A DNA stretch of 46,298 bases, taken from assembly GCA_002281535.1 (NCBI GenBank), contig NCGD01000038.1:1-46298 (forward strand), written 5' to 3'. The translations under genes and the position numbers were made by a program. The stretch comes from Sphingomonas sp. 28-63-12. Its GTDB lineage: Bacteria; Pseudomonadota; Alphaproteobacteria; Sphingomonadales; Sphingomonadaceae. The stretch's first letter is position 1. Every line of letters starts with the position of its first letter. Below are positions 20,024 to 24,746 of this stretch, piece by piece. Under the pieces are notes generated by a model that had not been told where the DNA came from, did not search any database, and saw nothing but the letters and a program-made list of their open reading frames with translations.

Positions 20024-20076
20024 GATTCGAATGACGGATCGCGTCAATCGTGATTCGCGGGATGGGAGACGAGTCT

Positions 20077-22005
20077 GTGGATTTCAGAGATGGCCAGGAA
20101 GCGAGTACCGATATGGCAACCGATCTAATCGAGGCGGCAACCGCCGGCATCGCCACCGCGGCGAAAAAGGCGAAGGCAGCCGCGGCCGTGGCTGATTCCA
20201 AATCGATCAAGCCGCAGATCTTCCCGGTCGAGGTCGATCACAGCCGCGATGCCCTGCTCACCGATTTCGGTAAGGATACGCTGAACGATCGCTATCTGCT
20301 GCCGGGCGAAAGCTATCAGGACATGTTCGTCCGCGTGGCATCCGCCTATTCGGACGATGCCGCGCATGCGCAGCGCATCTATGATTATATCTCGAAGCTG
20401 TGGTTCATGCCCGCCACGCCGATCCTGTCGAACGGCGGCACCGGGCGCGGCCTGCCGATCAGTTGCTATCTGAATTCAGTGCCCGACAGCCTGGAAGGCA
20501 TTGTCGAGACCTGGAACGAGAATGTCTGGCTCGCCTCGCGCGGCGGCGGCATCGGCACCTATTGGGGCAATGTCCGGGGCATCGGCGAGCCGGTCGGCCT
20601 CAACGGCAAGACCAGCGGCATCATTCCGTTCGTCCGCGTGATGGATTCGCTCACGCTCGCGATCAGCCAGGGGTCGCTGCGCCGGGGGTCCGCTGCCTGC
20701 TATCTCGACATCAGCCATCCGGAGATCGAGGAATTCCTCGAAATCCGCAAACCCTCGGGCGACTTCAATAGGAAGGCGCTCAACCTGCATCACGGCGTGC
20801 TGATCCCCGATGCCTTCATGGAGGCCGTCCGCGCCGGCGAAGAGTGGAACCTCACCAGCCCGAAGGATGGCTCGGTACGTGGCACGGTCGACGCGCGCGC
20901 GCTGTTCCAGAAGCTGGTCGAAACCCGCCTCGCGACCGGCGAGCCCTATATCGTGTTCAGCGATCATGTGAACAACGCGATGCCCAAGCATCACCGTGAT
21001 GTCGGCCTCAAGGTGTCGACCTCGAACCTGTGTTCGGAAATCACGCTGCCGACGGGCAAGGATCATCTCGGCAATGATCGCACGGCCGTGTGCTGCCTGT
21101 CGTCGCTCAACCTGGAAACCTGGGACGAGTGGAAGGATGCCAAGGGCTTTATCGAGGACGTGATGCGTTTCCTCGATAATGTGCTGCAGGATTATATCGA
21201 CCGTGCCGAGCCCGGCATGGCCCGCGCCGCCTATTCCGCCGCGCGCGAGCGCTCGGTCGGCCTTGGCGTGATGGGCTTTCACAGCTTCCTGCAGGCGCGC
21301 GGCCTGCCGTTCGAAGGGGCAATGGCCAAGCAGTATAACCTGCGCATCTTCAAGCATATCCGTGGCCAGGTCGACGAAGCCTCGATGCAACTCGCGATCG
21401 AACGCGGTGCCTGCCCCGACGCCGCCGATCAGGGCGTGATGGAGCGTTTCAGCTGCAAGATGGCGATCGCGCCGACCGCGTCGATCAGCATCATCTGCGG
21501 CGGCACCAGCGCGTGCATCGAGCCGATCCCGGCGAATATCTACACCCACAAGACGCTGTCGGGCAGCTGGTCGATCAAGAACCCCTATCTCGAAAAGCTG
21601 CTGATCGAAAAGTCGAAGAATTCGGATGCGGTGTGGAGCACGATCCTGGAAAAGGGCGGCTCGGTCCAGCATCTCGATTTCCTCAGCCAGGAGGAAAAGG
21701 ACTGCTACAAAACCAGCTTCGAGATCGACCAGCGCTGGCTGCTCGAACTGGCGGGGGACCGCGCGCCCTTCATCGATCAGGCGCAGTCGCTGAACCTGTT
21801 CATCCCTGCCGATGTCGAGAAATGGGACCTGCTGATGCTCCACTTCCGCGCGTGGGAGCTGGGCATCAAGTCGCTTTATTATCTCCGCTCGAAATCGATC
21901 CAGCGCGCCGGCTTCGCCGGTGGCGTGGAGGCGGACAACACCGCCGAACTCAAGCAGATCGAGCTTGAGGAAAAGGATTATGACGAGTGTTTGGCGTGCC
22001 AGTGA
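20077..22005 (+). CDS. nrdA: Ribonucleoside-diphosphate reductase class I alpha subunit
   Basis: About 642 residues. It reduces ribonucleoside diphosphates for DNA synthesis, with NrdB supplying the radical. Catalytic parts are present: C130 in PISCYLN, the NLCSEI triad with C319 as thiyl-radical residue, VCCLSSLNLE, and the swinging C-terminal redox pair CLAC at the very end. The specificity region (SRGGGIGTYWGNVRG) is intact. An N-terminal ATP-cone is absent: the first ~40 residues are an Ala/Lys-rich segment, so overall activity control by dATP at that site should be missing. I chose the GTG at 20077 with GGGAG nine bases upstream; ATGs at 20062 and 20113 are alternatives. nrdB lies 1.75 kb downstream. 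Confidence 0.95.
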   Translation: MDFRDGQEASTDMATDLIEAATAGIATAAKKAKAAAAVADSKSIKPQIFPVEVDHSRDALLTDFGKDTLNDRYLLPGESYQDMFVRVASAYSDDAAHAQRIYDYISKLWFMPATPILSNGGTGRGLPISCYLNSVPDSLEGIVETWNENVWLASRGGGIGTYWGNVRGIGEPVGLNGKTSGIIPFVRVMDSLTLAISQGSLRRGSAACYLDISHPEIEEFLEIRKPSGDFNRKALNLHHGVLIPDAFMEAVRAGEEWNLTSPKDGSVRGTVDARALFQKLVETRLATGEPYIVFSDHVNNAMPKHHRDVGLKVSTSNLCSEITLPTGKDHLGNDRTAVCCLSSLNLETWDEWKDAKGFIEDVMRFLDNVLQDYIDRAEPGMARAAYSAARERSVGLGVMGFHSFLQARGLPFEGAMAKQYNLRIFKHIRGQVDEASMQLAIERGACPDAADQGVMERFSCKMAIAPTASISIICGGTSACIEPIPANIYTHKTLSGSWSIKNPYLEKLLIEKSKNSDAVWSTILEKGGSVQHLDFLSQEEKDCYKTSFEIDQRWLLELAGDRAPFIDQAQSLNLFIPADVEKWDLLMLHFRAWELGIKSLYYLRSKSIQRAGFAGGVEADNTAELKQIELEEKDYDECLACQ

Positions 22006-22018
22006 GGTGATTGGAAGT

Positions 22019-22137
22019 TGCCCTCACCCTTTCGCCGCTACGCGGCTCCCTCCCTCTCCCTGCGGGAGAGGGATAGCCCTCTCCCGCAGGGAGAGGGAGG
22101 GGCCCGCGCGGCAACGCCGCGTGGGAGGGTGAGGGCA
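22019..22137. repeat. 119-bp compound hairpin repeat upstream of DUF559 gene
   Basis: Outer arms TGCCCTCACCCT (22019-22030) and AGGGTGAGGGCA (22126-22137) are perfect complements. Inside are two smaller hairpins, CCCTCTCCC-TGC-GGGAGAGGG (22052-22072) and CCCTCTCCC-GCA-GGGAGAGGG (22077-22097), which are reverse complements of each other. It is a REP-like intergenic palindrome directly after nrdA. Its right arm supplies the GAGGG Shine-Dalgarno of the DUF559 gene. Confidence 0.85.
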
Positions 22138-22141
22138 GCCA

Positions 22142-22633
22142 ATGCGCACCTATGCGAATCAGCCGATCGGCACCGTACCGCGAGCGCGCGAATTGCGCCG
22201 GAATGCGAGTCCCATTGAGAAGCGTTTGCTGCGCGGCCTGCACGCATCATTCCCGGCGCTCAAGTGGCGGCATCAAGTACCGATCGGGCCGTTCTATGCG
22301 GACATATTGTGCTTCAGCGAAAGGATGGTGATCGAGGTCGACGGCGCGGAACATGCCCTCGCCGCGACACCCGACGCACGCCGCACCGCCTTCATCGAAC
22401 ACGAAGGCTACCGCGTCATTCGTTTCTGGAACAACGAAGTCATGCAGAATCTAGACGGCGTCCTGGCGCAAATTTCCCTCTCCTTTCAGGAGAGGGAAGG
22501 GGCCCATCGCGCCAGCGATGGGAAGGGTGAGGACAGCCCCAAAGCAAAGGGCAGTGCCGCCGCCGAAGCGCCCCTGCCCTCACCCGACCTCGCTTCGCTC
22601 GGCCACCCTCTCCCGATGGGAGAGGGAATTTGA
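22142..22633 (+). CDS. DUF559 endonuclease-like protein embedded in repeats
   Basis: 163 residues. Residues 1 to about 115 form the DUF559 domain, related to very-short-patch-repair and restriction-endonuclease folds. Visible acidic residues are the E of SPIEKRLL, the D of FYADILCF and the E/D of MVIEVDGAEH, with an arginine-rich YRVIRFWNNEV strand. A single-strand-nicking or DNA-processing role is inferred. The last ~48 residues (from about SFQEREG to PMGEGI) are encoded by the downstream palindromic repeats and are unlikely to be part of the fold. The start at 22142 uses a ribosome binding site (GTGAGGG) that belongs to the upstream repeat. It sits between nrdA and a convergent DUF2171 gene. 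Confidence 0.8.
   Translation: MRTYANQPIGTVPRARELRRNASPIEKRLLRGLHASFPALKWRHQVPIGPFYADILCFSERMVIEVDGAEHALAATPDARRTAFIEHEGYRVIRFWNNEVMQNLDGVLAQISLSFQEREGAHRASDGKGEDSPKAKGSAAAEAPLPSPDLASLGHPLPMGEGI
22476..22626. repeat. Second compound hairpin repeat, overlapping the DUF559 3' end
   Basis: It begins with CCCTCTCCT-TTC-AGGAGAGGG (22476-22496) and ends with CCCTCTCCC-GAT-GGGAGAGGG (22606-22626), with GGGTGAGG and CCCTCACCC segments between. Stem size (9 bp), loop size (3 nt) and flanking words match the repeat at 22019-22137. The unit lies inside the last third of the DUF559 reading frame. Confidence 0.8.
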
Positions 22634-23503: not shown

Positions 23504-23703
23504 CCCCCGCCCTGAGCCCGATCTTCGGCATCATCATCGGCCTCAACCTCGTCTTTGCCGGCTTTGTCATGGCCTTCATCGCGCCAAAGCCGGCCCGCGC
23601 GCCGCACAACCTGCTCACCTGGCTCGGCTGGAAAAAGCCGGGCTATGCGCTGATCGTGGCCGGCATTGTCTACGCCCTGTTCACCCAAGTCGCGGGCCGA
23701 TAA
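23500..23703 (+). CDS. Small two-helix membrane protein
   Basis: 67 residues with two transmembrane helices (IFGIIIGLNLVFAGFVMAFI and YALIVAGIVYALFTQV) joined by a basic loop containing WLGWKKPG. It begins in a four-base overlap with the preceding gene and ends 55 bp before nrdB. The function is unknown. Confidence 0.6.
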   Translation: MTPALSPIFGIIIGLNLVFAGFVMAFIAPKPARAPHNLLTWLGWKKPGYALIVAGIVYALFTQVAGR

Positions 23704-23758
23704 CCTTGGCCCGCCCCGCCCTTTTGTCCCTCATCGCGTTCCCGTCGGAGTAAGCCCC

Positions 23759-24746
23759 ATGTCTCTTCTCGAAGCCCGCAAAGCCTATAAGCCGTTCGAA
23801 TATCCCTGGGCTTATGAGTTCTGGAAGCGCCAGCAGCAGATCCACTGGATGCCCGAAGAGGTGCCGCTGGGCGAGGATTGCCGCGACTGGGCACAGAAAA
23901 TCTCGGAGCATGAGCGCAACCTGCTCACCCAGATTTTCCGCTTCTTCACCCAGGCCGATATCGAGGTGCAGGATTGCTATCACGAAAAATACGGCCGCGT
24001 GTTCAAGCCTACCGAGATCAAGATGATGCTGACCGCGTTCAGCAACATGGAAACGGTGCACATCGCCGCGTACAGCCATCTGCTCGACACGATCGGCATG
24101 CCCGAAAGCGAATATGGCGCCTTCCTCGAATATAGCGAGATGAAGGACAAGCACGATTATCTGCAGAATTTCGGCGTCGACAATGATGCCGATATCGCCG
24201 CGCTTCAACAAGATGAAGGGCATGGGCCAGATCGTCAGCTGGTCGGTCCGCGACGAAAGCCTGCACTGCGAAGGCATCATCCATCTGTTCCACGCCTTCT
24301 GCAAGGAACGCCAGTGCCTGACCAAGGCGGTCAAGGACGACATCATGGACGTCTGCCAGACGACCGTGCGGCTGGAAGACGCCTTTATCGATCTCGCCTT
24401 CGAACAGGGCCCGGTGACGGGGATGACGCCGAAGGAGATCAAGAAGTACATCCGCTACATCGCCGATTGGCGCCTCGGCCAGTTAGGCCTGAAACCCATC
24501 TACATGATCGACGAACACCCCCTCCCCTGGCTCGCCCCGCTGCTCAACGGCGTGGAGCACGCCAACTTCTTCGAACAGCGCGCGACGGAATATTCCAAGG
24601 GCGCGACGCGGGGGAACTGGAACGAGGTGTGGGACAGCTTCGACAAGCGGCAAAAGGCAAAGGCCGGGCCGGTCGATGTAGCGAATGAGGATGCGGGCGC
24701 AGGTGACGGCGATATGTTCGCAAGGGCGGGGATTGCGGCGGAGTAA
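23759..24746 (+). pseudogene. nrdB: Class I ribonucleotide reductase beta subunit with internal deletion
   Basis: NrdB holds the diferric-tyrosyl radical needed by NrdA. The first frame (from 23759, GGAG upstream) has the ligand pair ETVH and radical tyrosine in METVHIAAYSHLL, then NFGVDNDADIA at about 24199. The normal continuation, a helix containing a conserved iron-ligand glutamate (F-x-E-G type), is missing. The second frame picks up at PRFNKMKGMGQIVSWSVRDESLHCEGI and runs to 24746. Against the family sequence I recall, about 25 residues (roughly 77 nt, not a multiple of three) are lost. Without that helix and in two frames, the product cannot be functional. A second nrdB, or an assembly error, is expected elsewhere. 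Confidence 0.85.

Follow-up and report, generated by a model that had tools for sequence, protein, structure and literature searches.

A DUF559 nuclease gene framed by triplex-type hairpin arms: a candidate small mobile element in Sphingomonas and other bacteria

The stretch of Sphingomonas sp. 28-63-12 DNA analyzed here (46,298 nucleotides; hereafter the window) contains a DUF559 open reading frame of 163 amino acids (22142–22633), which is flanked by nrdA and a DUF2171 gene and lies within hairpin repeats. Its PF04480 domain spans residues 14–113 (E 8.4e-28; 96.9 bits compared with a curated cut-off of 20.6). The features of the locus, in window coordinates, are:

20050–22005, plus strand: nrdA, ribonucleotide reductase large chain, the upstream neighbor; the junction at its 3' end served as the insertion site for comparison within the genus
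22019–22073, minus strand (reversed orientation): outer arm, made of a tail word, an inner hairpin and a 9-bp stem hairpin (22052–22072)
22077–22138, plus strand: forward arm of the element proper, made of a stem hairpin (22077–22097), an inner hairpin and the mirror tail GGGAGGGTGAGGGCAG immediately 5' of the start codon
22142–22633, plus strand: DUF559 gene, 163 aa, with its last ~52 residues encoded by the right-hand arms
22475–22538, plus strand: second forward arm, within the 3' part of the ORF, made of a stem hairpin (22476–22496), an inner hairpin and the tail GGGTGAGGACAG
22574–22633, minus strand: closing reversed arm, made of the tail CTGCCCTCACCC and a stem hairpin (22606–22626), stop codon included
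22077–22633, plus strand: the element as delimited, comprising forward arm, DUF559 gene and reversed arm (557 bp)

The first-pass annotation had described two compound repeats of the same architecture around this gene. The repeats are present where it placed them, each of the four CCCTCTCCC-type hairpins has the 9-bp stem and 3-nt loop that it gave, and the outer words GCCCTCACC and GGTGAGGGC are both found in the left repeat. The two repeats are built of the same kinds of parts, but the order of the parts is opposite: the left repeat has its hairpins at the center with both tails facing out, and the right repeat has its hairpins at the two ends with both tails facing in. Along the locus, the order is reversed arm, forward arm, DUF559 gene, forward arm, reversed arm, and the best inverted-repeat partner of 22574–22626 is the forward arm at 22077–22138. 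The right repeat encodes the C-terminal end of the protein, as had been claimed, although it contributes ~52 residues instead of ~48. When folded as DNA, the left 120 nt reached −68.4 kcal/mol, compared with −29.2 (sd 3.1) for 200 shuffles (z −12.7); for single right arms, the difference from shuffles was z −5.8 for the forward arm and a weak z −1.9 for the reversed one. To judge from its sequence, the left repeat plausibly supplies the Shine-Dalgarno of the DUF559 gene. Further downstream, nrdB is apparently split over two frames (23666–24746). The start of ORF 23666–24688 resembles NrdB by eye; the Pfam small-chain match (positions 174–280) is in ORF 24183–24746, which overlaps it in a different frame. 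The cause would be either a misassembly or a true frameshift.

A model of the window protein predicted from a 48-row alignment (pLDDT 88.2) matched NGO0050 (3hrl, E 9e-9) and the homing endonuclease I-Bth0305I (3r3p, 2.1e-5 and 1.5e-4); the match to Vsr (1cw0) had E 2.9e-3, short of the 0.001 line. Sequence profiles also matched 3hrl (E 3.9e-34) and 3r3p (E 2.5e-4), and NCBIfam PRK09767 was matched below its cut-off. The predicted fold is a nuclease fold of the Vsr/EDxHD homing endonuclease type. A PADLOC search for defence systems recognized neither the window protein nor that of L020; for P0002 it returned DpdF (8.1e-7) and mREase_II (0.003).

The source genome (G000; 94.8% complete) has four PF04480 matches, each of them between inverted hairpin arms, with inverted-repeat scores of 39 for the window gene and 64, 90, and 62 for the other three. 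The arms of these three all differ: CCCTCTCCCC with tail TTGGGAGAGGGG, CCCCTCCCC with tail TTTGGGGTGGGG, and TCCTCCCCGAG with tail GACGGAGGGG. The hairpin pattern CCCTCTCCN{3,8}GGAGAGGG occurs in 22 copies in this genome, compared with 1 copy of a control pattern, and four pairs of exact hairpins without a gene each span ~100–120 bp. Such gene-less arm pairs are dispersed and lie in frame within conserved genes, namely valS, uvrA, and ileS (families confirmed by NCBIfam). Matched hairpins that surround DUF559 genes and are also dispersed without them suggest a mobile element of very small size, and with it a partner gene for a widespread repeat.

We searched 59 genomes of one bacterial family, one per genus, with the DUF559 profile and obtained 132 matches in 53 of them. 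Analysis was carried out on 95 matches, mostly the higher-scoring ones, in 93 loci; the 37 left out are lower-scoring and include fragments and long multi-domain frames. The median pairwise identity of the family proteins was 41%. A domain was considered bracketed when the 250 nt upstream and the 250 nt downstream of it gave an inverted-repeat score of at least 33. Matched inverted arms bracketed 80 of the 95 family domains; control positions taken from those loci passed in 9 of 2234 cases. For a set of named loci, the best 80 of at least 572 confirmed matches as ranked by similarity to six of the family proteins, the result was 55 of 80 compared with 11 of 1829 controls (two genes are common to both sets: L109 = L020 and L128 = L021). 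The passing named loci, many of which are metagenome bins, come from Alpha-, Beta-, and Gammaproteobacteria, Thermodesulfobacteriota, Chloroflexota, Nitrospira, Binatia, and Bipolaricaulota; those of Spirochaetes (30), Omnitrophota (31), Bacteroidetes (25), and Auribacterota (19) scored under the threshold of 33.

A second test, in which a pyrimidine-stem hairpin had to lie in the right orientation within 220 nt of DUF559, gave a hit on either side of 154/175 DUF559 genes and on both sides of 110/175; the remaining ORFs of these loci, counted from a length of 80 aa, gave 45/497 and 2/497, counts that are not independent trials because the loci share ancestry. The background was 257 such hairpins in 951,815 bp, both orientations taken together. 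The association between DUF559 and the repeats, by which the first-pass annotation had proposed to judge its own idea, is real and general. Bracket scores below 30 were found for 36 of 175 DUF559 genes; on a quick tree these do not form one clade, and the bracketed label changes 23 times, compared with a mean of 33 when shuffled. A further 18 intervals scored high: one proved to be another DUF559, that of L135 carried triplex-type arms, and 16 resembled weak G+C-rich matches. The L135 arms (1865–2609) are ~700 bp apart, with no DUF559 match by profile between them.

Of seven loci from a plasmid collection, L337 (score 53) and L333 (41) passed, and L334, L335, L336, L338, and L339 (17–27) failed. 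At L333, on a plasmid of Deinococcus sp. NW-56, the DUF559 arms have the opposite orientation, with the tail outward and the hairpin facing the gene. At L334, from Neisseria gonorrhoeae, a diverged triplex-type hairpin is immediately 5' of DUF559, with no partner arm downstream. From viral contigs, 28 of 71 loci were tested; one was at a contig edge, and 15 of 27 passed.

Several lines of evidence show that the DUF559 gene and its arms form a unit. Besides the bracketing itself, the size range is narrow: the 135 bracketed elements have a median length of 468 bp, with the middle half between 446 and 504 bp. The window element exceeds this simple form because of its extra forward arm. Arms also co-vary with the protein. 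Across 80 bracketed genes from 38 genomes, arm similarity tracked protein similarity between genomes at 0.47, a value not reached in any of 2000 trials in which arms were swapped among the DUF559 genes within each genome (null 0.10, sd 0.05, highest 0.29). The nearest foreign protein's arm was also compared with two arms of the genome at hand, the gene's own and that of another DUF559: of 170 such comparisons, the gene's own arm was the closer in 146 and the other in 17, with 7 ties. The inverted arms are terminal inverted repeats of the kind by which a MITE or DNA transposon is recognized. At L132 (3800–4490), the whole element is present in tandem copies with a 69-bp spacer. At the single site analyzed, purifying selection acts on the DUF559 protein, with dN/dS of 0.04–0.10 in 15/15 pairs of six orthologues, some dS values being saturated; a second Sphingopyxis element gave an uninterpretable 0.53 from a single pair that is 33% identical.

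We consider it probable that the gene and its two inverted hairpin arms together are one mobile element, ~470 bp in its simple form. Arms that fold stably directly 5' of a start codon, and an ORF that extends into or beyond the right arm in 116 of 135 elements, would also suit arms that regulate or insulate the nuclease gene, as terminators or as hairpins for RNA stability or translation, and are kept for that. This seems very unlikely to us, given the gene-less arm pairs inside the valS, uvrA, and ileS frames; nor would regulation alone explain dispersal or the presence and absence of whole units described below.

Hairpin copies were counted in each genome with the pattern CCYTCYCCN{3,8}GGRGARGG. 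Genomes in which a fetched DUF559 bears class I, class II or unclassed arms had a median of 16.5 copies (n = 28, range 0–139), and those with only TCCTCCCC arms had 6.5 (n = 10); the median was 0 where DUF559 is present with none bracketed or fetched (n = 15) and 1.5 in genomes without DUF559 (n = 6). Repeats equally common in genomes lacking DUF559 had been named beforehand as an outcome that would count against the association, and the medians of 16.5 and 1.5 speak for it. The class I, II, and unclassed group differed from all others at p = 1.3e-5 and from the TCCTCCCC-only group at p = 0.06, in a grouping that is rough because only part of the DUF559 genes were fetched. Certain genomes with an armed DUF559 hold just 0–3 hairpin copies.

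Conserved gene junctions were then compared among relatives. At the nrdA junction, where 30 of 56 matching genomes were read, DUF559 was present in 16 of 30, with a score of at least 33 in 15 and of 32 in one. Among the 18 junctions legible by motif, the 11 with arms all had DUF559 and the 7 without arms all lacked it. Gene-less arm pairs that had seemed present at several nrdA loci were ruled out when a longer scan found DUF559 there. At the nrdA site of L275, the DUF559 match is in two pieces, probably a broken gene. The valS site, read in 30 of 51 matching genomes of the genus, was legible in 25; three of these carry an insertion, with two arm classes among them, and 22 carry none. At a third junction, between what we take by eye to be odhB and lpd, 30 of 60 genomes from the genus of G038 were read: 6 loci have one DUF559 element, 8 have an unrelated DUF559 element, 2 are empty, and 14 contain other sequence. 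All 14 DUF559 elements at this junction are bracketed (scores 58–104), and in the two empty junctions the stop codon nearly touches the next start. The loci occupied by unrelated sequence of other kinds, which by eye is coding in part, are Sphingopyxis-type (L344, L345, L347, L349, L350, L353–L355, L357, L358, L361–L363, and L368). The odhB-lpd junction is a hot spot for small inserts; since both it and valS also hold unrelated sequence, such junctions may simply tolerate them. Whole units are thus present or absent at conserved gene junctions, and the empty sites that had been looked to for support do exist in relatives.

The same junctions can recur in different genera: nrdA in the genus of the window and in L057, sufB in L002 and L337. 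The sufB-DUF559-sufC arrangement is also found on the Sphingomonas parapaucimobilis plasmid of L337. Such recurrence, together with I-Bth0305I being among the closest solved folds, would be expected of a free-standing homing endonuclease gene that cuts empty alleles at particular junctions and is copied in by repair, with arms that aid repair or protect the locus and a separate origin for gene-less dispersal. We judge homing of this kind unlikely. It does not account for tens of dispersed gene-less copies per genome or for two arm classes at one valS site, and two unrelated DUF559 elements at the same odhB-lpd junction speak for site tolerance.

A search of element ends for target duplications gave no excess of short shared words (11/133, compared with 8.0 expected). 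Long direct repeats abutting the element were present in 5/133 cases (L002, L087, L132, L162, and L174), compared with 2/5291 shuffled pairs; as target duplications, two of them were rejected, L132 being a tandem copy of the element and L174 having gene-less copies on both sides. At L002 (1000–1740), the last ~16 codons of sufB (48 bp) recur beyond the DUF559 element, whose DUF559 reading frame enters this second copy. At L087 (4850–5470), a 57-bp duplicate of the first codons of a gene, presumably ispE by eye, is present on both sides of the element. These two gene-end duplicates would fit widely staggered nicks, too little for a claim.

Each arm consists of a pyrimidine stem, a loop, a purine stem, a spacer (~2 bases or the inner hairpin), and a purine tail. 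In sequence it repeats the purine stem in mirror order, with A or T opposite A; in 125 asymmetric stems, mirror repeats outnumbered direct repeats by 63 to 14, with 48 ties. A mirror purine tail has the geometry of an intrastrand purine triplex. In sequence, the DUF559 arms are the intrastrand triplex motif called TM or TMECO, earlier PIT (PMC4666352). That motif is widespread in bacteria as single arms and inverted pairs, is listed in 23 copies for E. coli K-12, is reported to form a triplex in vitro in its E. coli version, and is associated with genome instability in that organism (Holder et al., 2015, PMC4666352). In the extracts of the paper, no activity giving genetic mobility is described near TM sites, the origin of the motif is called unclear, no partner gene is named, and the words "duf" and "endonuclease" are absent (PMC4666352). 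With the arms being TM/PIT, DUF559 (YcjD in E. coli) would be the missing mobility partner of the motif.

The ycjD gene of E. coli K-12 carries a DUF559 annotation, and its 3' end bears a decayed right arm; a matched left arm was not visible at this locus (inverted-repeat score 20). An intact TMECO, number 9, is in the ycjD-fabI interval, ~170 bp from ycjD, at coordinates that agree with the published table (PMC4666352). In some phylogroups, ycjD takes the place of the eef operon (PMC12817139), and YcjD was earlier assigned to the PD-(D/E)XK superfamily (PMC1189080). At two inverted arm-pair loci of MG1655, a clean empty site was sought among strains and none was seen; the strains vary by deletions between arm words, by partial deletions, and by unrelated replacement sequence.

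The first-pass annotation had drawn a likeness to REP elements and RAYT transposases. A Y1 transposase (PF01797) was not found in the source genome or in the repeat-rich G001, G014, G025, G034, G038, G042, and G049, and the repeats are not accounted for by such an enzyme; the PF01797 profile is present in 13 of 59 family genomes, among them G024, G027, and G053. A conserved end tag (GTAG or CGTC) was sought in the 10 nt outside the stem of 221 arms and none was detected, the highest single-base frequency being 0.43. With DUF559 as the enzyme instead of Y1, and with no outer tag, REP/RAYT membership was ruled out. What stands of the parallel is that enzyme and hairpins co-vary; a reading of the repeats as REPs in the strict sense, with their tag and Y1 enzyme, is not supported, and the hairpins are of the triplex class. 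The earlier interpretation is partly supported.

Deletion between arm words at the two E. coli loci, and the link between triplex motifs and genome instability in E. coli (PMC4666352), could also mean that a different enzyme moves the arms or that they arise by triplex-induced instability, DUF559 having been carried along since one ancient capture. We find this improbable as well. Among the 18 other high-scoring intervals, L135 alone has triplex-type arms around something other than DUF559, no Y1 transposase was found in the source genome or the seven repeat-rich ones (Y1 being the one class searched), and a passenger would leave both the low dN/dS and the tracking of copy number with armed DUF559 without a reason.

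For a DUF559-bearing mobile element, we envisage that the Vsr/I-Bth0305I-like nuclease would recognize its own arms, folded as a hairpin or an intrastrand triplex, when they are single-stranded, e.g., at replication forks. By nicking or cutting, it would open the DNA at the ends of the element and so move the arms. To our knowledge, PD-(D/E)XK nucleases do not join strands on their own; joining would therefore need host repair, which would finish the insertion. Gene-less arm pairs would be mobilized in trans, as REPs or MITEs are. More tentatively, the elements may constitute a new class of mobile DNA, found in several phyla, bounded by triplex arms and moved by a lone Vsr-fold domain of ~100 residues, and could be the source of PIT/TM in E. 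coli (through YcjD) and many other bacteria; we can entertain this broader proposal without yet favoring it. If it is true, such elements, at ~470 bp, would be among the smallest self-mobile DNA elements, and a nuclease that moves its arms would represent mobile DNA without DDE, HUH, tyrosine or serine chemistry. DUF559, to date a family without an assigned function, would gain a role, and the P-, S-, G-, and E-rich peptides that lie in frame within essential enzymes would have an explanation. For the abundant bacterial triplex repeats, whose origin the 2015 study left open (PMC4666352), DUF559 is a candidate partner gene, and a single small protein together with a single DNA hairpin would suffice to put the question to the test.

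No description of a DUF559 gene with arms as a unit was found in the open-access literature searched. The closest arms are those of TM/PIT, which are alike in pyrimidine stem, loop, purine stem, and mirror purine tail; what is added here beyond PMC4666352 is the gene between two arms, the co-variation of arms and protein, and the insertions within genes. YcjD, NGO0050, and other DUF559 proteins are of the same family as the window protein and have so far been single genes of unknown role, with one Caulobacter member linked to DNA damage (PMC12907096). I-Bth0305I and the Vsr-like mobile nucleases share the fold; unlike them, DUF559 has inverted arms and dispersed gene-less relatives, with no intron or intein at the sites read. 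Rickettsia palindromic elements are likewise palindromic and in frame in protein genes, but are a different sequence family, and no partner gene is given in the extracts of the review (PMC10969869). A similar organization is that of REP/RAYT (REPtrons and REP doublets), which also has dispersed hairpins, inverted pairs, in-gene copies, and the gene of a DNA-cutting enzyme flanked by hairpins of its own type, in enzyme-specific hairpin families (extracts of PMC3733652). The two systems differ in the enzyme, a Y1 (HUH) transposase there and a PD-(D/E)XK/Vsr-type nuclease here, and in the arm, which there has a GTAG or CGTC tag and here a purine tail. As an analogy only, the co-variation of DUF559 proteins with their arms may correspond to the enzyme-hairpin specificity of REPtrons.
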